A stretch of 36,757 nt of DNA from Flavobacteriales bacterium (lineage in GTDB: Bacteria; Bacteroidota; Bacteroidia; Flavobacteriales_C; GCA-002722245), in the NCBI GenBank assembly GCA_029251005.1, contig JAQXEE010000129.1, positions 1-36,757 on the forward strand, given 5' to 3'. Below, one piece after another: positions 1 to 35,760 of this stretch. Numbering within the stretch: position 1 is the first letter of the stretch; each line of letters begins with the position of its first letter. The notes beneath the pieces were generated by a model. It had not been told where the DNA came from. It saw only the letters and a list, made by a program, of their open reading frames with translations, and searched no databases. Made by a program: the position numbers and the translations under genes.

Positions 1-163
1 GCCCCATATCCTTAATGGTTTTTCTAGTGGCTTGCACAAAATCTGTAGTTTCCTTTCTTTTACAGCTTCCTCCATTACAAAAGAAAAGGCATTTTTTAGT
101 TTCAATCAAATCCTTTACTGCCATTTTAGATAAGTGTGGTTCAATAATTAATTTTAAAGTCAT
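1..163 (-). CDS. (2Fe-2S) ferredoxin / thioredoxin-like protein, partial
   Basis: The first 54 codons of a minus-strand gene run off the left edge of the window. Residues 23-36 read KKCLFFCNGGSCKR, which has the look of the thioredoxin-like [2Fe-2S] ferredoxin family: a beta strand ending in a Cys-rich turn (Cys25, Cys29, Cys34). The second cysteine pair would lie outside the window. Met1 at 163 and Met14 at 124 are both possible starts; with a transcription start near 170, Met1 leaves almost no leader and Met14 leaves about 45 nt, similar to the TonB receptor gene. The promoter carries the same dyad as the zinc-locus promoters 26 and 34 kb away, so this gene probably belongs to that regulon. 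The family assignment rests on a short stretch and is moderate. Confidence 0.55.
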   Translation of the reverse strand, partial: MTLKLIIEPHLSKMAVKDLIETKKCLFFCNGGSCKRKETTDFVQATRKTIKDMG

Positions 164-176
164 AAAAATACAGGTA

Positions 177-229
177 CAAAAATACTAATAATCTTTTAAA
201 TGCAACTGTGTTGCATTTAAAAGATTATT
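177..229 (-). promoter_or_regulatory. Promoter with Zur-type dyad for the ferredoxin-like gene
   Basis: Minus-strand -7 element TATTTTTG lies at 184-177. Upstream is a perfect inverted repeat with 20-bp arms (187-206 and 210-229) around TGT, with core GCAAC-TGT-GTTGC centred at 208. The TTG of its right half is 18 bp upstream of the -7 element and can act as the -33 element. The centre is 31 bp from the last G of the -7 element, exactly as at 26660 and 34185. There is no second dyad at the downstream position (centre 171) seen in the other two promoters. Confidence 0.75.
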
Positions 230-26636: not shown

Positions 26637-26703
26637 AAGTTTTTAATTTAAACGCAACACGGTTGCGTTTAAATTAAAAACTTTACATTTGCAACATAAT
26701 TGC
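26637..26703 (+). promoter_or_regulatory. TonB-receptor promoter with two Zur-type dyads
   Basis: The -7 element TACATTTG is at 26684-26691. Dyad A is a perfect inverted repeat with 22-bp arms (26637-26658 and 26662-26683) around ACG, core GCAAC-ACG-GTTGC centred at 26660; its TTG lies 18 bp upstream of the -7 element. Dyad B, GCAAC-ATA-ATTGC, spans 26691-26703 (centre 26697), starts on the last G of the -7 element and covers the expected transcription start. Centre distance is 37 bp. Dyad A could also form an RNA hairpin for a transcript arriving from elsewhere. Confidence 0.8.
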
Positions 26704-26737
26704 ATTTGTTCAAGGTTAATTTGTTGGGTAACTTAAG

Positions 26738-29185
26738 ATGATAATTAGATTAAAATTTATACTTGGTATTTTGTCATTACTTACTGTTTCGGTATCAACT
26801 GCCCAAATAGATTCCTGTAATTTTTCTGTTAGTGGGAAAATTTTGGATGTTGAAACCAAAAAACCAATCCCTTTTGTATCTGTATTTATTCGGGGGACAG
26901 AAGAGGGGACAATAGCAAGTGAGAATGGAGAATTCTTGATTGATGGATTATGCTCCAAAACCAATACTTTAATAATTTCATGTTATGGTTATTGCGACTC
27001 AATATGTGAGCACAGTCATCAACATGGTAAAGTTCCTCATATTTACCTTACTCAAAATGTAGTAAACCTTGATAAAATAATTATTAAAGCAGAGGTAAAT
27101 AAAAAAGAAGGAACCGAATCAATTTCGCAAGTTACCATTGAAAAATCGGAATTAAAATCAAATCCAGTTCAAAGTCTCGCTTCAGCAATTTCTGATCAGC
27201 CCGGTGTATCTTTAATATCTCTTGGTTCTAATATTGAGCTGCCTGTAATACATGGGTTATATGGGAATAGAGTTTTAGTTTTAAATAATGGGTTAAAACA
27301 TGGGTTTCAAAATTGGGGACAAGATCATGCTCCAGAAATTGATATTAGCGCTGCTAATAGAATAACCATTGTTAAAGGTGCTGCTGGAGTAAGATATGGT
27401 CCTGAAGCCCTAGGAGGAGCTGTTATTGTTGATCCCAATCCACTTTATTTATCTGAACCCTTTTTTGCTGAAATAGGATCTGGCTATCAAACTAACGGAA
27501 GAGGTTATAATTCAGCATTCGAAGTAGGAAAAGGGGGAGAGAAATGGAGTTACTTTTTTAACGGGAATTATAACAGAATTGGAGATCGCCAATCACCAAA
27601 TTACAACCTTACTAACACAGGTAAGGAAGAGATTTCTGGAGGCTTTGGAACAAGATACCGAGGAAAAAAATGGGATTTTAAAGGATATTACAGTTTAGTA
27701 GACCAAGACTTGGCTATTTTAAGAGGGTCTTTTGCACACAGTGGTGATGCTATTGTGAGGGCTTTTAATGGCGAACAACCAGACTCTGCTTATATTTTAC
27801 CCTTTTCATACGAGATCATGGAACCAAGTCAAAAAACGCAACATCATCTTGCTAAGGGAGAGCTTAAATGGTTTTATTCGGACCATGGAAATATTACTTA
27901 TCGTGTGGGGCGACAAATTAATTACAGAAAAGCATTTGATGTAAGACGAAATTCGAATCTGCCAATTGTTGATTTGACATTATCTACTGTAGACCATCAA
28001 ATAGAATGGAAACATCCTGATTGGTATAAGCTTAATGGAACTTTAGGCTTGCAATATTTTTATCAGGATAATGATAATATTCCAGGAACTCAAACAACTC
28101 CTTTTATACCCAATTACAATACGAGTAGATACAGCGCATTTGTTGTTGAAAGTAAAAGAATAGGTGAAGATATACTTGAGGCAGGTACTCGAATAGACTT
28201 TGAAGCCAATAATGTTAGGGGACGAGAAGCCAACCAAGATATTTTTAGAGATGAATATTCATTTACAAATCTTACATCTACTGTTGGTTATGTTAAAAAT
28301 TTCGCCAAAATTAACACGTTTAGAACGAACCTTGGGACTGCTTGGCGAACACCAAACATGGCAGAGTTGTTTAGTTTTGGTCAGCACGGTTTTAGGACCT
28401 CTTACGGCCTTCTAAGATATTATTATACCGATCAACAAAAGTTAAAAACCGATAAAGTAAGTTCAATTACGGATACAGATGTCCAGCCTGAAAAAGGATT
28501 TAAATTCACGAATGAATTAAAAATCAATAAAACCTATTCAACTCATACTGTTACAATTTATTCAAACTACATTCAAAATTTTATTTATCTAAGACCATTT
28601 GCTGTTGTAGGCTCTTTTAGAGGTCCGCAGCCAGTTTTTATATATGATCAAGCGGATGCTTTTTTTGCCGGTGGGGATTACAGTTGGAAGGTTGATTTAT
28701 CAAAAAACACAAAAGGAACTTTAGGCTTAAGTTATTTGTGGTCAAGGAATATTTCCCAAAACGATGCATTAATTAATCAACCACCTATTTCGATTAATTA
28801 TAAGTTTGTTTGGCGCCAAAACAACTTTTGGAAATTTAAAAAATCAAGTTTTATTGTGAAGCCACTTTACCGTTTGAAGCAAATTCAAGCTCCGCGAACT
28901 GTTACTCCAGAGCAGTTAATAAGTGGGGAAGAGGTGATTTTATCCGATGCTGCAATTTTTGATTTTAAATCAGCTCCTGATGGATATTTTAGGTTGGATA
29001 TGTCATGGCAATTTGAATTTAAGAAGTTACAAGGAAGCATTATGATAAATAATTTATTCAATACGCGTTACCGAGATTACTTAAATGAGATGAGATATTT
29101 TGCAGATGCTCCTGGAAGAAATCTCATTTTTAATCTTAATTATAAATTCAAAACCAAAACCAAAACCAAAACCAAAACCAAATAA
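26738..29185 (+). CDS. TonB-dependent outer-membrane receptor, probable zinc uptake
   Basis: 815 residues. Signal peptide 1-22. Residues about 27-110 form a carboxypeptidase-like regulatory domain (VSGKILDVETKKPIPFVSVF) that carries four cysteines (72, 82, 86, 90) and the cluster CEHSHQHG at 90-97, an obvious metal-binding candidate. Plug domain about 125-240 (PVIHGLYGNRVLVLNNGLKH, APEIDISAANRITIVKG, RYGPEALGGAVIV), then a 22-strand-type barrel ending NLIFNLNYKF. Ten extra residues (alternating Lys/Thr) come from a hexanucleotide repeat. It is co-transcribed with the Asp/His-rich lipoprotein gene 13 bp downstream and controlled by two dyads. Zinc as substrate is inferred from the locus. Confidence 0.88.
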   Translation: MIIRLKFILGILSLLTVSVSTAQIDSCNFSVSGKILDVETKKPIPFVSVFIRGTEEGTIASENGEFLIDGLCSKTNTLIISCYGYCDSICEHSHQHGKVPHIYLTQNVVNLDKIIIKAEVNKKEGTESISQVTIEKSELKSNPVQSLASAISDQPGVSLISLGSNIELPVIHGLYGNRVLVLNNGLKHGFQNWGQDHAPEIDISAANRITIVKGAAGVRYGPEALGGAVIVDPNPLYLSEPFFAEIGSGYQTNGRGYNSAFEVGKGGEKWSYFFNGNYNRIGDRQSPNYNLTNTGKEEISGGFGTRYRGKKWDFKGYYSLVDQDLAILRGSFAHSGDAIVRAFNGEQPDSAYILPFSYEIMEPSQKTQHHLAKGELKWFYSDHGNITYRVGRQINYRKAFDVRRNSNLPIVDLTLSTVDHQIEWKHPDWYKLNGTLGLQYFYQDNDNIPGTQTTPFIPNYNTSRYSAFVVESKRIGEDILEAGTRIDFEANNVRGREANQDIFRDEYSFTNLTSTVGYVKNFAKINTFRTNLGTAWRTPNMAELFSFGQHGFRTSYGLLRYYYTDQQKLKTDKVSSITDTDVQPEKGFKFTNELKINKTYSTHTVTIYSNYIQNFIYLRPFAVVGSFRGPQPVFIYDQADAFFAGGDYSWKVDLSKNTKGTLGLSYLWSRNISQNDALINQPPISINYKFVWRQNNFWKFKKSSFIVKPLYRLKQIQAPRTVTPEQLISGEEVILSDAAIFDFKSAPDGYFRLDMSWQFEFKKLQGSIMINNLFNTRYRDYLNEMRYFADAPGRNLIFNLNYKFKTKTKTKTKTK
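29150..29182 (+). repeat. Hexanucleotide tandem repeat at the 3' end of the receptor gene
   Basis: 5.5 copies of AAAACC just before the stop codon encode alternating Lys/Thr. A unit of six cannot shift the frame; copy-number change would only alter the tail length. Confidence 0.85.
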
Positions 29186-29198
29186 CAATTATTAAATT

Positions 29199-29915
29199 AT
29201 GAAACCAATGAACAAATTTAAAAAGTATAGCATGGTTCCAATGCTAGCAGCTGCAGTTTTATTAACTGGATGTGAAAAAGAAGAAGAAGAAGTGCCAGAG
29301 GAAGAGCATGATCATGAAGTTATTACTAATGTGCATTTGATTTTTACAAACGTAGATGATCCATCAGATGTTGTAGAGGTTGAGGCAGAGGATCATGATG
29401 GCGAAGGAGTGGAGGAGCTTGAGATACTCGATACTATAAACTTAGATGCTTCAAAAACTTATGATCTTACGTTTGAAATTTTAAATGCGCATGACGATCA
29501 TGACTATGATGACAATGATTGCGATGGTATCGATGATGAGGATGATCACGATGATGAGGCAGAAGACATAGGAGCAGAAATTGCTGATGAAGCTGACGAA
29601 CACCAACTATTTTTTGGTTTCACAAACAATATTTTTACTAATCCAGAAGGAGATGGGAATATTGATGATGCATCGCATGATGTAGTTTATAATGATTTAG
29701 ATAGTAAAGGAAACCCACTAGGTTTAAATACAAGTTGGACTACATCTGGAGCGTATGAAGGTGGTAAATTTAGAGTGATCTTAATGCACCAACCAGGTAT
29801 TAAAACCGCTTCATCGAGTTCGAAAGATGGAGATGCAGATTTTGATTTAGAGTTCGTTATCAATATTAATAGTTTACCAATTGTTGCAATTGGAATATCT
29901 GCAGGACTTGAATAG
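29199..29915 (+). CDS. Asp/Glu/His-rich lipoprotein, probable metal-binding partner of the receptor
   Basis: 238 residues. Lipoprotein signal with lipobox LLTGC, lipidated Cys25. The mature N-terminus is strongly acidic with histidines (CEKEEEEVPEEEHDHEVI), and residues about 100-135 contain a dense run of Asp, Glu and His (HDDHDYDDNDCDGIDDEDD). The rest is beta-rich without a known signature (NVHLIFTNVDDPSDVVEV; LVININ-like end). No transport domain is visible. It lies 13 bp after the receptor gene and ahead of a terminator at 29932, so the two are one transcript. It probably gathers or buffers metal at the outer membrane; that role is inference. Confidence 0.75.
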   Translation: MKPMNKFKKYSMVPMLAAAVLLTGCEKEEEEVPEEEHDHEVITNVHLIFTNVDDPSDVVEVEAEDHDGEGVEELEILDTINLDASKTYDLTFEILNAHDDHDYDDNDCDGIDDEDDHDDEAEDIGAEIADEADEHQLFFGFTNNIFTNPEGDGNIDDASHDVVYNDLDSKGNPLGLNTSWTTSGAYEGGKFRVILMHQPGIKTASSSSKDGDADFDLEFVININSLPIVAIGISAGLE

Positions 29916-29931
29916 AATTTAAATATTCTTC

Positions 29932-29963
29932 ACACCCTTACATTTCGTGAGGGTGTTTTTTTT
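29932..29963 (+). terminator. Terminator between the lipoprotein and Fur-family genes
   Basis: ACACCCTTAC / GTGAGGGTGT stem (one T-G pair) with loop ATTTC and eight Ts. It separates the Fur-family gene from the receptor transcript, at least partly. Confidence 0.88.
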
Positions 29964-29975
29964 GATCTAGTAATA

Positions 29976-30383
29976 ATGAATACATCTTCCAAAACGTTAT
30001 TAAAAAACTACGGACTTAAGGTAACAGCAAATCGTTTAACTATTTTGGAAATGATGAAATCTGTTGGTCATGCAGTGTCGCAAAACGACCTAAAATTGAT
30101 GCTTAATAATAGTTTAGATAAGGTGACTGTTTACAGAACTCTGAAGACATTTCAAAAAGCGGGTATAATTCATGAGATTTTAGATGGGAGTGTCCAAGTA
30201 AAATACGCTCTATGCGATATTTCAAAGTGTAATGCTGATGCCCATATTCACTTTAAATGTAATTTATGTGAAAAAACATTTTGTCTCAATTCAATTAAAA
30301 TCCCAAACATTTCATTACCAAATGGCTTTATGGTTTCTAAACAGTTTGTAAGTTTTCAAGGAAAGTGTCAAGGCTGTAGTTAG
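29976..30383 (+). CDS. zur: Fur-family transcriptional regulator, probable Zur
   Basis: 135 residues. Winged helix in the first 80 (LKVTANRLTILEMM; DKVTVYRTLKTFQKAGIIHE), then the metal-binding dimerisation domain. The structural zinc site is complete: Cys95-x2-Cys98 (FKCNLCEKTF) and Cys131-x2-Cys134 (GKCQGC). A regulatory site is suggested by DAHIHF (His90, His92) and nearby Cys/His residues. Fur-family members cannot be split into Fur, Zur or Mur by sequence alone; zinc is favoured because the flanking operons encode MerC, two CobW GTPases and a zinc-dependent FolE. It is the natural candidate for the GCAAC-N3-GTTGC dyads. ATG start. The stop codon is two bases from the stop of the convergent GTPase gene. 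Confidence 0.85.
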   Translation: MNTSSKTLLKNYGLKVTANRLTILEMMKSVGHAVSQNDLKLMLNNSLDKVTVYRTLKTFQKAGIIHEILDGSVQVKYALCDISKCNADAHIHFKCNLCEKTFCLNSIKIPNISLPNGFMVSKQFVSFQGKCQGCS

Positions 30384-30385
30384 GC

Positions 30386-31279
30386 TTAAATAACAGCATT
30401 TAAAGCTTTTAAAAGTGTACCCGGTTCACTTCCTGGTCCAACAGACAATAACATAGGGCCTGTTGTTGGTTGATTTCTGAATTTTCTAATATTAATTGTA
30501 CCATCAGGAATACGTTCAAAGAATGTATAGTTTTCATTGTTCCCGATTTTTGTCACTCCTTTTACTCTTAAGATACTTTTTGGTAGCTTGTTGAGAATAG
30601 CCTTAATGCATTCTTCGTTTGGAAAATCAGGTAGTTCAATTGAGCATGATGCCCAGTGAGCTTTTAAATGATCCAATTTTTCGGGGGTGTTTTTTGATGG
30701 AACAAGTTTTGGGAGAAGATATATATTTAGTTCATCCAAACTGATTATTTCTACATAAGGATTTATAGATTTAACTGATGTTTTTACTTCTTCTATTCTT
30801 GCGTCAGTAGATCCTTCAAGGTGCGTTAATACAATAACTGAGGAAACTTGAATTTGGTTCGATTCCAATTCATTGTGTTCCCCTCTCCGTTGCCAGTTTT
30901 TTACATCAACTACCGAAATTTGAACAGGTGGCAAATATCTGTTTTCTAATCCAACACCTAAAAAGCCCATTAAAGAGCAAGCGTCAGATGTTCCGTTCGC
31001 CTCAATTAGTGTAATTCCGTTTTCTCGCAAAGGGATGCGGTTAACATAATCTCTTAATTCGGCTATACCACTGCAACAAATACAACTGCCATTTAGCGCC
31101 TGAATATGTTTTGGATCTATTTTTTCGGCTAATTGTTGAGCGTCTAAATGAGCATTTTCATAGTCGTTTAAGATAACATAAGGATTCCATTTTTCTGAAA
31201 TAAAACTGTTCGTTAAGTGCCTTAACAATGTTGTTTTACCGGCTCCCAAAAATCCGACGATTGCTATTATTGGTTCCAT
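30386..31279 (-). CDS. CobW/COG0523-family GTPase with degenerate guanine motif
   Basis: 297 residues from the ATG at 31279 ([20 protein letters not shown]); seven more codons upstream are possible but not family-like. P-loop GFLGAGKTT at 9-17 and the metal-binding motif SCICC at 65-69 (CxCC) are intact. The G4 motif that sets guanine specificity, normally NKxD, reads THLE at 152-155. The C-terminal domain (about 205-297) is shorter than in typical CobW_C. COG0523 proteins use GTP hydrolysis to hand metal to client proteins. It is the last gene of the merC operon, 66 bp after the NTF2-like gene with an inverted repeat between them. Confidence 0.85.
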   Translation of the reverse strand: MEPIIAIVGFLGAGKTTLLRHLTNSFISEKWNPYVILNDYENAHLDAQQLAEKIDPKHIQALNGSCICCSGIAELRDYVNRIPLRENGITLIEANGTSDACSLMGFLGVGLENRYLPPVQISVVDVKNWQRRGEHNELESNQIQVSSVIVLTHLEGSTDARIEEVKTSVKSINPYVEIISLDELNIYLLPKLVPSKNTPEKLDHLKAHWASCSIELPDFPNEECIKAILNKLPKSILRVKGVTKIGNNENYTFFERIPDGTINIRKFRNQPTTGPMLLSVGPGSEPGTLLKALNAVI

Positions 31280-31291
31280 TTTTTTAATTTT

Positions 31292-31324
31292 AAATAACAT
31301 CCAAGTTAAACTTGGTTGTTATTT
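31292..31324. repeat. Intercistronic inverted repeat
   Basis: 14-bp arms (31292-31305 and 31311-31324) with one mismatch around TTAAA. There is no T run on the minus strand, so it is not a standard terminator; it may stabilise or process the upstream mRNA or reduce read-through into the last GTPase gene. Confidence 0.6.
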
Positions 31325-31345
31325 AAGTGTAGTTTCGAAACGAGG

Positions 31346-31807
31346 TTATATGCTATAAGGAAATGAAGAGTGGTGTAAATCAATTTTTACTAAACCATTA
31401 AACAGTTTGTAACCAAAAGTATATTCTACTTTAGCCTCGTTATCATTTAAATCGGTAAAAAAGTAATTACCCATAGCAATTGCTCTATCTCCATCTATAA
31501 TAATACCCGCATTTTCAAATCGAACTTTAGTCCATGGATTAATTGCAAAACCTTTATCTTCTGCACATTTTCTATCCTCCCCTGCAATAAAGTATGAAAT
31601 AGCCTCTGCTTTTGAAGGTCTAAATTGCTCAACCGCACATTTCGTAGGTTTAAACAAAACAGGACCTTTTTCAAAACCATACAATAAGTCTAGAAACTCA
31701 CTTGCATACGATTCGCATTCAAGTCTTTTATTTCTTAGGGCTCCAATTTTCACTACACCTAATCCCCACTTTTCTTGAGCTGCCTTTACTTGTTCTTTTG
31801 TAATCAT
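31346..31807 (-). CDS. NTF2-like (SnoaL/CaMKII-association fold) protein of the zinc operon
   Basis: 153 residues, cytoplasmic. The second half (about 95-153) shows the strand pattern of the NTF2/cystatin-like fold: AGIIIDGDRAIAMGNYFFTD, VEYTFGYKLFNGLVKIDLHH and the ending HHSSFPYS, as in the calcium/calmodulin-kinase association domain family. The middle has three cysteines (at CESYA, KCAVEQF and KCAEDKG) and a conserved-looking GFAINPWTKVRFEN. From memory, homologues in zinc-limitation gene clusters are sometimes labelled phosphoribosyl-AMP cyclohydrolase, but no HisI motif is visible. It lies 11 bp after folE and is part of the operon. Its job is unknown. Confidence 0.65.
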   Translation of the reverse strand: MITKEQVKAAQEKWGLGVVKIGALRNKRLECESYASEFLDLLYGFEKGPVLFKPTKCAVEQFRPSKAEAISYFIAGEDRKCAEDKGFAINPWTKVRFENAGIIIDGDRAIAMGNYFFTDLNDNEAKVEYTFGYKLFNGLVKIDLHHSSFPYSI

Positions 31808-31818
31808 AATAGTTTTTG

Positions 31819-32466
31819 TTATTCACTTAGTTTTAAAAACTCATTTCTAATATTCTCATCTAAAAAATCGCCATCATATTCTATTGTGACAGTTGAGCTT
31901 GTTGTATCTTTTATTCCTCTTGTAGATACGCATAAATGCTCTGCATCAACCACTACGATAACACTTTTAGTTTTGAGCGATTTCTGTAACTCATTTAAAA
32001 TTTGAATGGTTAATCTTTCTTGTACTTGAGGTCTTCTTCCGTAGTACTGAACAATCCTATTCATTTTTGATAAACCGATTACTTTTCCTGATGAAATATA
32101 ACCAATATGAACTTTACCGCGCATCGGTAAAAAGTGGTGTTCACAGGCAGAATCAAATGAAATATTTTTTTCTACCAACATTTTACTGTATTGATATTTG
32201 TTATCAAAAGTTGATATAGAGGGCTTATTTTCAGGATTTAAACCACTAAAAAGTTCTTTAACATACATTTTCGCAACACGAAATGGAGTTCCTTTTAAAC
32301 TATCGTCTTTTAAATTAAGTCCAAGTGTTTCCATTATTATCTTAAAATGCTCCTGAATAATAGCTATTTTTTCCTCGTCTGACTTATCAAAAGCATCCGA
32401 AACCATTGGAGTTTCTTTGCTTGTCATTACATGGTTGTCACCAATTATATCTTCTAAATCGCTCAT
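31819..32466 (-). CDS. folE: GTP cyclohydrolase I (type IA, zinc-dependent)
   Basis: 215 residues. It converts GTP to dihydroneopterin triphosphate, the first step towards folate and pterins. The zinc ligands of type IA enzymes are present: Cys108 and His111 in SACEHHFLP and Cys179 in AEHLCVSTRGIKD. Other signatures are GTPFRVAKMYV, HIGYISSGKVIGLSKMNRI and RPQVQERLT. The first 30 residues are an extra acidic extension. It starts 3 bp after the CobW GTPase stop codon and sits under the MerC promoter. Its presence in a probable zinc-starvation operon, directly behind a COG0523 GTPase, suggests metal delivery to this enzyme, as shown for ZagA and FolE in Bacillus subtilis. Confidence 0.95.
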   Translation of the reverse strand: MSDLEDIIGDNHVMTSKETPMVSDAFDKSDEEKIAIIQEHFKIIMETLGLNLKDDSLKGTPFRVAKMYVKELFSGLNPENKPSISTFDNKYQYSKMLVEKNISFDSACEHHFLPMRGKVHIGYISSGKVIGLSKMNRIVQYYGRRPQVQERLTIQILNELQKSLKTKSVIVVVDAEHLCVSTRGIKDTTSSTVTIEYDGDFLDENIRNEFLKLSE

Positions 32467-32469
32467 TTT

Positions 32470-33702
32470 CTAGTAGTCTTGTTTGTGCGGGGGTATTGCT
32501 CTTTGAACGGGCCAGCTATCTTCTATTCCACTTTCCCAATTCACGTTAACAATTTCATTATCGGAGCTTAAACAATTGTTTAATTCCATTACTATTTTTT
32601 CCTTGTTTAAATCTTGACCAATAAATACTAATTCATTTTTTCGGTCCCCAAATTGTTTATCCCAATCTTTTTCAATTACTTCTTGATTGGACATAAAATC
32701 TGCATAATTCGATCTTTCTTTCATCGGCATGCTACTCCACCATACACCTGCGCTATCAGCTTTTAAAGAACCCCCAGCTTGCCCCCAATTCATTGCTTGA
32801 TTAGGTCTTGAATCAAGCCAAAAAAGGCCTTTACTTCTTATAACATTGTGCGGGAAATCATTTTGAATATAGTTCCAAAACCGCTCTGAGTTGAACGGTT
32901 TCTTACTTCTAAAAGCAAAAGAACCAATTCCATACTCTTCTGTTTCTGGTGTGTGCTCAGGTTTATTTAATTCTTCAATCCAGCCTGCACTTTGCTCTGC
33001 TTCATCGTAATCAAATAATCCCGTGTTTATAACCGATTTTAAAGGTACTTTACTGTGCGAAGTTTTAATTATTTTGGCTCTAGAATTTAATTTTGTTATC
33101 ATCGCCTCTAGTAAATCCAAGGTGTTTTTATCCACTAAATCGGATTTATTAATAATTACAACATCCGCAAACTCAATTTGATCGGTAAGTAAATTAACAA
33201 TGGAGCGATCATCCTCTTCAATATCTGTAAGCTCACGGTCAACAAGTAATTCAGGTGATCCAAAATCGTTAAAAAAATTGAAGGCATCAACAACTGTTGC
33301 CATAGTATCGATAAAGCTAAATTTGCTTAAGTCAATACCGTTTTCTTCGTCTTGAAACGTAAAGGTTTGCGCAATTGGAATTGGTTCCGAAATCCCCGTA
33401 CTCTCTATTATTAAATAGTCAAATCTTTTTTCTTGAGCTAAACGTTCAACTTCAACCATTAAATCTTCTCTAAGCGTGCAGCAAATGCAACCATTACTCA
33501 TCTCAACTAATTTCTCCTCAGTACGTGAGAGTGCCCCTTGGTTTTCTACTAGTTGTGCATCAATGTTAATTTCACTCATGTCATTAACAATTACAGCTAC
33601 TTTTAGGCCCTCTTTATTGTTAAGGATGTGATTAAGTAGAGATGTTTTACCAGCTCCTAGAAATCCACTAAGAACTGTAACAGGTAATTTATTTCGTTCC
33701 AT
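32470..33702 (-). CDS. CobW/COG0523-family GTPase, ZagA/ZigA-like zinc chaperone
   Basis: 410 residues. All nucleotide motifs are intact: P-loop GFLGAGKTS (13-21), Walker B region [12 protein letters not shown] (185-188). The metal site GCICC is at 71-75 and the switch-like MSEINID at 42-48. The C-terminal CobW_C domain (about 265-400) contains [27 protein letters not shown] and [11 protein letters not shown]. The length matches the roughly 400-residue ZagA/ZigA group of zinc-starvation proteins. It lies 35 bp after merC and 3 bp before folE, so FolE is the likely client. The gene ends in an Asp-Tyr tail without His-rich stretch. Confidence 0.92.
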
Positions 33703-33737
33703 ATTTTAACTTTTCAAATTTCAACTTCTAATGTTAA

Positions 33738-34148
33738 TTAACAACACTTTTCTTCACATTGACAAAATTTAAGGTTGTAGATGTGTAGCACAATCAAACT
33801 TATGGCAGGGATATAAATTGCTTTTTCAAATAAAGTGACTAGGTTTAAATATTCATTAAATATTACGAAAGAAATAGCCATCCATGTTAACCACATGAGT
33901 ATTTTAATAATTTTATTTGTTGATTTTTTTGTGGAAGCTATAACGGCAAAAAAAGAGATGGTTAAAAAGAGAACATCAATTATTTTCCACCAAACAGGTG
34001 TTTCCTCACAACATGTTGTTGAACAAGTTTTTGCGATGAATAAAAAAGGTGTAGCCAAGCAATGCAATAAACATAAACTGCTTGCAAGCATACCTAGATA
34101 ATCAGATTTATTTATTAAGATTTGATTTCTACCTTCTAAACGCAACAT
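33738..34148 (-). CDS. MerC domain membrane protein
   Basis: 136 residues from the ATG at 34148; a TTG six codons upstream would put the start inside the -7 element. Four membrane helices of the MerC family, with the motif DYLGMLASSLCLLHCLATPFLF (given in parts: CLLHC, Cys26 and Cys30) on helix 1, a second cysteine cluster CSTTCC (42-47) in the first loop and a CQCEEKCC tail (129-136). MerC proteins were first described in mercury uptake; Bacteroidota copies next to COG0523 genes probably handle zinc or a similar soft metal. First gene of a five-gene operon. The operator covers the start codon, so the mRNA may be leaderless. Confidence 0.88.
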   Translation of the reverse strand: MLRLEGRNQILINKSDYLGMLASSLCLLHCLATPFLFIAKTCSTTCCEETPVWWKIIDVLFLTISFFAVIASTKKSTNKIIKILMWLTWMAISFVIFNEYLNLVTLFEKAIYIPAISLIVLHIYNLKFCQCEEKCC

Positions 34149-34191
34149 GGTTGCAAATGTAAGCAAAAATCATTTATTGCAATACCGTTGC
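34142..34191 (-). promoter_or_regulatory. merC operon promoter with two Zur-type dyads
   Basis: On the minus strand the -7 element TACATTTG lies at 34161-34154. The upstream dyad, GCAAC-GGT-ATTGC, spans 34179-34191 (centre 34185), with its TTG 18 bp from the -7 element. The downstream dyad, GCAAC-CAT-GTTGC, spans 34142-34154 (centre 34148), starts on the last G of the -7 element and contains the merC ATG. Centre distance is 37 bp, as in the TonB-receptor promoter. Confidence 0.8.
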
Positions 34192-34213: not shown

Positions 34214-34461
34214 TAATGCTCGATAAGGTAAATTATCATTGATAAACTTATAGTAAACCAGTAGGTTTTTAGCTTTCTTTTAATCAGGCTATTTTTTTAG
34301 TAAATAAAAAAGAATTTGCTGAATTTCGTATTTATTCTTCCCTCGTTATCGTTCTGAAAAACTGTTGGGTTGGCTATTTTTACTTGTTTTGTGAGAAATC
34401 ATTCTGTTTAAATCCAAAAGATTACAAATGCTTAAATTTGAGTATTATTACTTGGAAAATG

Positions 34462-35760
34462 ATGAACACATTAAACGAATTAAAATCAGGGAAATTAATT
34501 GGTTCCAAAAGGTTAAAATTGGCTTGTGGTTTAACGGAGTTTCCCTCCGAAATTATTTCGTTGGCTAGTACATTGGAAATTTTGGATTTATCAGGAAACG
34601 AAATGAGTGCATTACCAGATAGTTTTGCTGAATTAAAGAAACTAAAAATCATTTTTTTCGCCAATAATAAGTTTACTGTTTTCCCTAAAATATTGGCGAA
34701 GTGTCCATCATTAACGATGATTGGTTTTAAGTCAAATCAAATTCATAATGTTCCCGAAAACGCATTTCCGCCTTTATTGCAGTGGCTAATATTAACGGAT
34801 AATAAACTTAAGAATTTACCAAAAAGTATAGGTGAAAGTTATTTGCTTCAAAAGTGTGCTTTAGCAGGTAATTTGATTGAAAAGTTGCCTATTGATATGG
34901 CGAATTGTGTTAATTTGGAATTGCTTCGAATTTCGGCCAACCAACTTCATGAAATACCAAAATGGTTGTTTGAGTTACCTAAATTATCTTGGGTGGCTTT
35001 CGCTGGAAACCCAGGAGCGGATAAGCTTAAATTAAAAACTGATTTGGAGTTGTTTTCTTGGGATGATTTTGAACTTAAAGAATTGTTAGGAGAAGGTGCT
35101 TCAGGTTTAATTTCAAAAGCGAATTGGATTGCTCAAAAGAAGGAAGTAGCCATTAAGGTTTTTAAAGGAGCTGTAACTAGCGACGGATTACCAGAAGATG
35201 AGGTGTCGGTTTCTATCCATGCCGGTATACATGAAAATTTAGTGGAGGTTTTGGCTAAAATTAAAAATCATCCTGAAGGTAAAAGTGGTTTAATTATGGG
35301 ATTAATCCCGTCGAGTTTTATCAATTTAGGAAATCCACCCAATTTTGAAACCTGCACAAGAGATGTATTTGATGAAGCAGCTACATTTACAGAGGAGCAG
35401 TTAATAAAATTGGTAAAGAGTATCGCTTCAGTTAGTGCTCAATTGCACCGTAAAGGAATTAATCATGGCGATTTGTATGCGCACAATATACTTGTAAACG
35501 AATTTTCGGATTGTTTACTTGGTGATTTTGGAGCGGCTACTTACTATAATACCAGCTCAGTTTTAGCCCACAATATTGAACGGGTAGAAGTGAGGGCTTT
35601 TGGATGTTTAGTAGAAGATTTATTGAGCCTTGTTGAGGAAAGTAGTGGACGTAATGTGCCATTTGAAAAGTGGCTAAAACTAATTAAAAAGTGCCGTGTT
35701 CCAACTGTTAAAACCAGATTAAGCTTTGCTGAAATTGTTTGCGAATTGGCAGGATTTTAA
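34462..35760 (+). CDS. Leucine-rich-repeat protein kinase
   Basis: 432 residues from the ATG at 34462 (MNTLNELKSGKLIGSKRLKL), the family's usual start; an ATG one codon earlier and a longer frame to 34384 exist. Residues about 15-195 hold seven to eight LRR units (LEILDLSGNEMSALPDSF, LQWLILTDNKLKNLPKSI and so on). Residues about 208-432 are a Ser/Thr kinase domain: glycine loop LLGEGASGLIS, VAIK lysine, catalytic loop HGDLYAHNILVN and LLGDFGAA. The HRD arginine is replaced by Gly, so it is a non-RD kinase. Cytoplasmic, no membrane helix. The substrate is unknown. Such LRR-kinases occur singly in diverse bacteria. Confidence 0.9.
   Translation: MNTLNELKSGKLIGSKRLKLACGLTEFPSEIISLASTLEILDLSGNEMSALPDSFAELKKLKIIFFANNKFTVFPKILAKCPSLTMIGFKSNQIHNVPENAFPPLLQWLILTDNKLKNLPKSIGESYLLQKCALAGNLIEKLPIDMANCVNLELLRISANQLHEIPKWLFELPKLSWVAFAGNPGADKLKLKTDLELFSWDDFELKELLGEGASGLISKANWIAQKKEVAIKVFKGAVTSDGLPEDEVSVSIHAGIHENLVEVLAKIKNHPEGKSGLIMGLIPSSFINLGNPPNFETCTRDVFDEAATFTEEQLIKLVKSIASVSAQLHRKGINHGDLYAHNILVNEFSDCLLGDFGAATYYNTSSVLAHNIERVEVRAFGCLVEDLLSLVEESSGRNVPFEKWLKLIKKCRVPTVKTRLSFAEIVCELAGF

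Follow-up and report, generated by a model that had tools for sequence, protein, structure and literature searches.

What would join two operons and a distant gene under one regulator, and in response to which signal? The question is raised by contig JAQXEE010000129.1 of a Flavobacteriales bacterium (assembly GCA_029251005.1, positions 1-36,757; this whole stretch is referred to as the window), in which the dyad GCAAC-N3-RTTGC stands before the two operons of a putative zinc locus and before a ferredoxin-like gene. We conclude that AAATGCAAC-N3-GTTGCATTT is very probably the operator of a Bacteroidota clade of Zur, a zinc-responsive branch of the Fur family, and that the window holds the core of the predicted regulon. 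From the computed sites, their geometry and conservation, the genes behind them, the linkage to a regulator and its metal-ligand residues, we infer Zur binding, a zinc signal, repression, the identity of the start sites and which paralogue acts.

Dyads are centred at positions 208 (minus strand), 26660 (plus strand) and 34185 (minus strand). At all three, the last G of the dyad's own TTG lies at +5 from the centre, leaving 18 bp to a TAnnTTTG element whose last G lies at +31. On recount, these positions and distances were exactly those of the initial annotation. Its three copies are real, but the window contains five dyads of the exact pattern, and the additional centres at 26697 and 34148 had been missed. 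Both lie exactly 37 bp beyond a first dyad, and in each the first G doubles as the final G of the TAnnTTTG element (TTTGCAAC). Since TAnnTTTG occurs only 51 times in the window on both strands, three exact spacing matches are not due to chance. We therefore rejected a chance origin for the exact copies and their geometry, and accepted it for copies with two mismatches, which numbered 44 against 41.7 expected.

TAnnTTTG is the sigma-A -7 box of flavobacteria, located at -12 to -5 from the transcription start (PMC9723704). Each first dyad is thus part of a layout in which its TTG serves as the -33 element, followed by 18 bp, TAnnTTTG and the start. Because TAnnTTTG is the known -7 box, the dyad-bearing promoters appear to be ordinary promoters of the phylum with a built-in operator. 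With the -7 position taken from PMC9723704, the second dyad covers about -5 to +8. In the promoter of the TonB operon (plus strand), operator A1 (26637-26683) is a 47-bp perfect palindrome around the dyad GCAACACGGTTGC (26654-26666, centre 26660), with the -33 TTG at 26663-26665. The -7 element TACATTTG occupies 26684-26691, and operator A2, the second dyad GCAACATAATTGC (26691-26703), starts on its last G and spans the expected transcription start. The MerC operon (minus strand) has the asymmetric dyad copy GCAACGGTATTGC as operator B1 (34179-34191, centre 34185), which holds the -33 TTG, the same -7 element (34154-34161), and operator B2, the second dyad GCAACCATGTTGC (34142-34154), again starting on the final G of that element. 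Operator C of the ferredoxin promoter (187-229, minus strand) is a 43-bp perfect palindrome with the dyad GCAACACAGTTGC at its middle (202-214, centre 208), the TTG of which is the -33 element; the -7 element TATTTTTG lies at 177-184.

Recurrence of the dyad across Bacteroidota

The initial annotation had made its proposal depend on conservation in orthologous promoters, and the dyad is indeed kept there. In three genus mates it precedes the orthologous TonB receptor (66% identical), MerC, ZigA and a ferredoxin/COG0523 pair, and it also precedes a zur-like gene. The gene at 2-163 (minus strand), the start of which is interrupted by the contig end, had been described as ferredoxin-like; consistent with this, a genus-mate orthologue matches the thioredoxin-like [2Fe-2S] ferredoxin family (PF01257), and its orthologues in the three genus mates are likewise preceded by dyads.

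We scanned 395 genomes of the class for the composite pattern GCAACNNNGTTGC-N16-20-TAnnTTTG, and obtained 73 matches in 53 genomes, as compared with three matches for the reversed pattern used as control. When the dyad-to-TAnnTTTG spacing was left open (N5-35) in a scan of 393 genomes of the phylum, 53 of the 86 matches fell at N16-21, six at N22-35 and 16 at N6-8. This last spacing class, found mainly in family f35, places the dyad about one helical turn nearer the promoter. Sites in both scans were chosen by pattern with gene content unused in the selection, so the downstream genes constitute independent evidence. The 65 downstream open reading frames included 13 for MerC, 11 for cobW, nine for Pyr_redox_2, seven for TonB Plug, five for DUF4625 and two each for HisI and FUR, and occurrence of the dyad upstream of MerC, COG0523 and TonB genes across the class was far above the control.

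Two further gene types recur behind the dyad. A thioredoxin-reductase-like FAD enzyme is among the commonest (L060, L068, L071, L074, L083, L087, L088 and relatives). A DUF6702 gene lies behind a long-palindrome Zur-type dyad in genomes G001 and G003 (L032:13503-14072 and L039:4430-5550, both minus strand), with a HupE/UreJ-like gene next after it in G003.

Named genomes were gathered by ZigA homology alone, and the dyad was sought within 400 bp upstream of zigA with at most one mismatch. It was present at 21 of 34 loci labelled Bacteroidota, including those of Flavobacterium rakeshii, Dyadobacter, Zunongwangia, Mucilaginibacter and Pedobacter; one of the 34 belongs to a Kapaibacterium metagenome-assembled genome and has no dyad. 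Outside Bacteroidota only 4 of 46 zigA loci had it, all from betaproteobacteria (one Sulfuriferula and three Herbaspirillum; L290, L295, L299 and L307), and each of these carries two exact dyads upstream of zigA, 28-39 bp apart. A search of the genome contigs with the TonB receptor as query gave no match.

Exact dyads occur at eight places in the whole 2.9 Mb host genome; six have a promoter-like setting, and the other two seem to lie within genes. The sixth promoter-like copy (C38:20576), with TATTTTTA likewise at +24 to +31, is upstream of an M23 peptidase gene (L001:219-1451, minus strand, Csd3_N2 domain; dyad at 1507 in a palindrome with 20-nt arms). We rejected this site as a conserved member of the regulon, since the orthologues in G001 and G002 (67-70% identical) lack the dyad.

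The second dyad follows a strict rule. Allowing up to two mismatches in a slot whose first base is the final G of the -7 element, we found a second dyad in 26 of 77 promoters, and in none when the slot was moved by 1 to 5 bp in either direction. The dyad-to-dyad offset equals the spacer plus 20 in 26 of 27 cases, such that spacers of N16, N17, N18, N19 and N20 go with offsets of 36, 37, 38, 39 and 40. The identical distance to the -7 element stressed by the initial annotation is exact in the window and varies by a few base pairs among promoters elsewhere; it arises because operator halves coincide with promoter elements.

We propose that zinc-loaded Zur dimers would bind the first dyad, the right half of which, GTTGC, contributes the TTG of the -33 element. 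In roughly one promoter in three, those of both main operons among them, they would also bind a second dyad that runs from the final G of the -7 element over the transcription start. Bound Zur would thereby mask the -33 element alone, or the -33 element, the -7 element and the start together, from the primary sigma factor. At low zinc, release of Zur would allow synthesis of the TonB receptor, the His-rich lipoprotein and MerC for uptake, of COG0523 chaperones together with FolE, and of replacement or redox proteins, namely a metal-free carbonic-anhydrase-like protein and the ferredoxin and, elsewhere, HisI.

The candidate regulator

The initial annotation had named the Fur-family protein encoded at 29976-30383 (plus strand) as the binder. 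This protein has a FUR domain (PF01475, E 7.5e-13), and 17 loci of the class encode a member of its clade near a dyad, mostly divergent or directly downstream; in 13 of them the gene start is about 60 bp or less from the dyad. In an alignment of 25 clade members, H66, C80, H90, H92 and C103 are invariant, as are the four cysteines of the structural site (C95, C98, C131 and C134). In a comparison of residues only, H66, C80, H90 and H92 align with the regulatory ligands of E. coli Zur (EcZur) and M. tuberculosis FurB. Among solved structures, the clade profile matched E. coli Zur best (7.1e-15), then M. tuberculosis Zur/FurB (5.8e-13), a Fur protein and S. coelicolor Zur. The same DRVTVYR stretch recurs in a regulator encoded at the Sulfuriferula locus with two exact dyads, which supports a pairing of this stretch with the dyad.

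Several observations weigh against a Zur assignment, or against this protein as the binder. Searched singly, the 29976 sequence scores slightly higher against Fur and PerR models than against Zur, which ranks first only with the clade profile. The bit scores are 38.6 for Fur (NF006999, cut-off 146), 38.0 for PerR (NF052545, cut-off 180) and 31.5 for E. coli-type Zur (NF008646, cut-off 167), all below their cut-offs; by this measure the protein is not an orthologue of the narrow NF008646 group. The gene has no dyad of its own in the window, where we also saw no znuABC, and a paralogue of the same clade, 49% identical, is encoded on contig C133. Lastly, exact dyads in sister genus g2 appear to be at chance level and mostly intragenic, and for this reason the regulon seems patchy.

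The paralogue raises the alternative that the sites are genuine Zur operators but that their main binder is the C133 protein, or both proteins, rather than 29976. The two share their clade and its invariant ligands, and the 29976 gene, dyadless and separated from the TonB operon by a terminator-like hairpin, shows no visible autoregulation, unlike many clade members. However, it lies inside the zinc locus and its product groups with the G003 regulator (support 98/93), whereas dyads around the paralogue are only at chance level. We consider it unlikely, though worth bearing in mind, that the paralogue is the main binder. Far less probable is a Fur-, PerR- or Nur-like regulon responding to iron, manganese, nickel or peroxide. 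Apart from the order of the single-sequence matches, this alternative can draw on the redox enzymes and ferredoxins among the targets and on a NicO nickel transporter found once. Against it, the top matches of the clade profile are Zur proteins, COG0523 and MerC dominate the targets, accompanied by HisI and FolE, and the invariant C80 aligns with the regulatory cysteine of Zur.

Long palindromes

Perfect palindromes, which the initial annotation had also missed, surround the dyads at 208 (20-nt arms), 26660 (22-nt arms) and the C38 site (20-nt arms, L001:1487-1529). Arms of at least 14 nt were found for 28 of 123 intergenic loop-3 repeats with the GCAAC core and for 2 of 283 with other cores, and in an earlier count over all sequence the figures were 13 of 113 and 2 of 981 (Fisher p 7e-12), although these counts are not fully independent because many genomes of a single genus contributed some of the loci. 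In genus g153 (long-palindrome loci L196, L146, L167, L147, L166 and L145), 19 of 31 sites have arms of at least 12 nt; the longest reach 29 nt per side and mirror even the -7 element. Between species, the arms of orthologous promoters differ in sequence and are equal in symmetry; five arm differences between L149 and L150, read by eye, are all compensated. The palindromes end abruptly: just beyond the first mismatch, the arms match no better than background (0.13-0.39), and breaks of the wobble type show no excess. A tendency of long palindromes and tandem dyads to replace each other was not significant (2/11 vs 24/66, Fisher p 0.32).

A terminator scan flags 26639-26681 and the 47-nt stem there is very stable, but we rejected RNA hairpins (terminators or attenuators, with an incidental spacing from the -7 element) as a most improbable explanation, given that the dyad precedes the -7 element and hence falls outside the transcript to be controlled, that the genes flanking 26660 diverge, that the core is kept in short-arm sites, that the second dyad follows the -7 G exactly, and that first mismatches are not enriched in G-T pairs (12/31).

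Long perfect repeats are also found at terminators in genome G289. In the host genome itself, a perfect palindrome with 24-nt arms and a 1-nt loop (L243:4859, contig C28, core AATTGCAGATTCTGCAATT) is neither Zur-like nor an obvious terminator; it is possibly the operator of another regulator with the same extension.

Template switching at hairpins is a known process by which the arms of inverted repeats become homogenised (PMC8604942). We favour this process over selection on symmetry as the origin of the palindromes, because long perfect repeats also occur at the G289 terminators and at the unrelated site in the host genome, although it leaves the strong excess at Zur cores unexplained. The same two kinds of repeat weaken the idea of a Zur-specific function of the long palindromes. 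We regard it as doubtful that the palindromes are functional, with a symmetry well beyond the protein footprint that persists through changes of sequence, for example as a cruciform that depends on supercoiling or as an extended array of repressors.

The probable zinc locus and known Zur systems

On the plus strand, a TonB-dependent receptor gene (26738-29185; CarbopepD_reg_2 and Plug domains), encoding a candidate zinc outer-membrane receptor, is followed by a gene for an acidic His-rich lipoprotein (29199-29915), whose orthologues in G001 and G002 likewise lie behind the TonB gene, by the intrinsic-terminator-like hairpin (29932-29956) and by the regulator gene. The minus-strand operon begins with a MerC-family membrane protein gene (33738-34148), the true start of which is probably the ATG at 34148, within operator B2, rather than the TTG at 34166; co-regulation suggests a role for its product in uptake. 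Next are genes for a ZigA-like COG0523 zinc metallochaperone GTPase (32470-33702), type IA GTP cyclohydrolase I, FolE (31819-32466), a distant relative of metal-independent carbonic anhydrase (31346-31807; NF047901, E 3.8e-32, under the curated cut-off) and, last, a second COG0523 GTPase with a CobW domain (30386-31300). With 553.9 bits over 382 residues against ZigA (NF038288), below the curated cut-off of 600, the first GTPase scores as a close relative of ZigA and not as ZigA itself. A more distant FolE is encoded elsewhere in the host genome. In Bacillus subtilis, ZagA (YciC) sustains FolE in zinc limitation, which would explain a COG0523 gene beside folE. Divergent from the MerC operon and adjoining the locus is a gene for a protein that combines leucine-rich repeats with a kinase-like domain at its C terminus (34384-35760).

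The regulator resembles the Zur proteins of E. coli (4MTD), M. tuberculosis (FurB, 2O03) and S. coelicolor (3MWM) in its Fur fold and Cys4 structural site; its regulatory residues align with H77 and C88 of EcZur and with the Cys and His-His ligands of FurB. As in those systems, the predicted targets are zinc uptake, COG0523 and zinc-sparing genes, and a palindromic operator lies over the promoter. Unlike those proteins, it belongs to a clade of its own with an invariant fifth residue, C103, and the operator has a GCAAC-N3-GTTGC core and halves that coincide with the Bacteroidota -33 TTG and -7 TAnnTTTG elements. Known Zur targets in other phyla include COG0523, HisI paralogues and a putative ferredoxin (PMC2770081, PMC6103462). 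The theme of COG0523, GTP cyclohydrolase, HisI and carbonic anhydrase is common to those regulons (COG0523/YciC, FolE2, HisI, carbonic anhydrase) and to this one, and the ferredoxin target is shared with S. coelicolor (SCO7676); here, in contrast, FolE is of type IA rather than FolE2, and MerC, TonB and the Pyr_redox_3 enzyme are prominent. In Vibrio cholerae, shyB encodes a Zur-repressed M23 endopeptidase, with a Zur box that overlaps the -10 region and the start (PMC6381278). The C38 dyad likewise lies upstream of an M23 peptidase gene but, unlike shyB, is not kept in the two orthologues.

The COG0523 survey (PMC2770081) dealt with Firmicutes, Proteobacteria and Cyanobacteria; neither it nor the zinc reviews examined gave an account of a Bacteroidota zinc regulon. 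Among the papers searched for Bacteroidota Zur, we found no description of an operator, of its fusion with the promoter or of the palindrome behaviour. The dyads point to a phylum-scale Zur regulon of a known kind, the functional steps of which are predictions. The fixed-geometry motif would make zinc regulons recognisable in sequence throughout Bacteroidota, and it marks MerC-like, DUF4625, DUF6702/HupE and Pyr_redox_3 proteins as zinc-starvation candidates among unannotated families. In the palindromes, the growth of inverted repeats at hairpin-forming sites could be followed as a natural series; should they prove functional, they would add a second layer of control on zinc promoters. More generally, these promoters provide an example of an operator that appears to be integrated into the -33/-7 promoter characteristic of the phylum.

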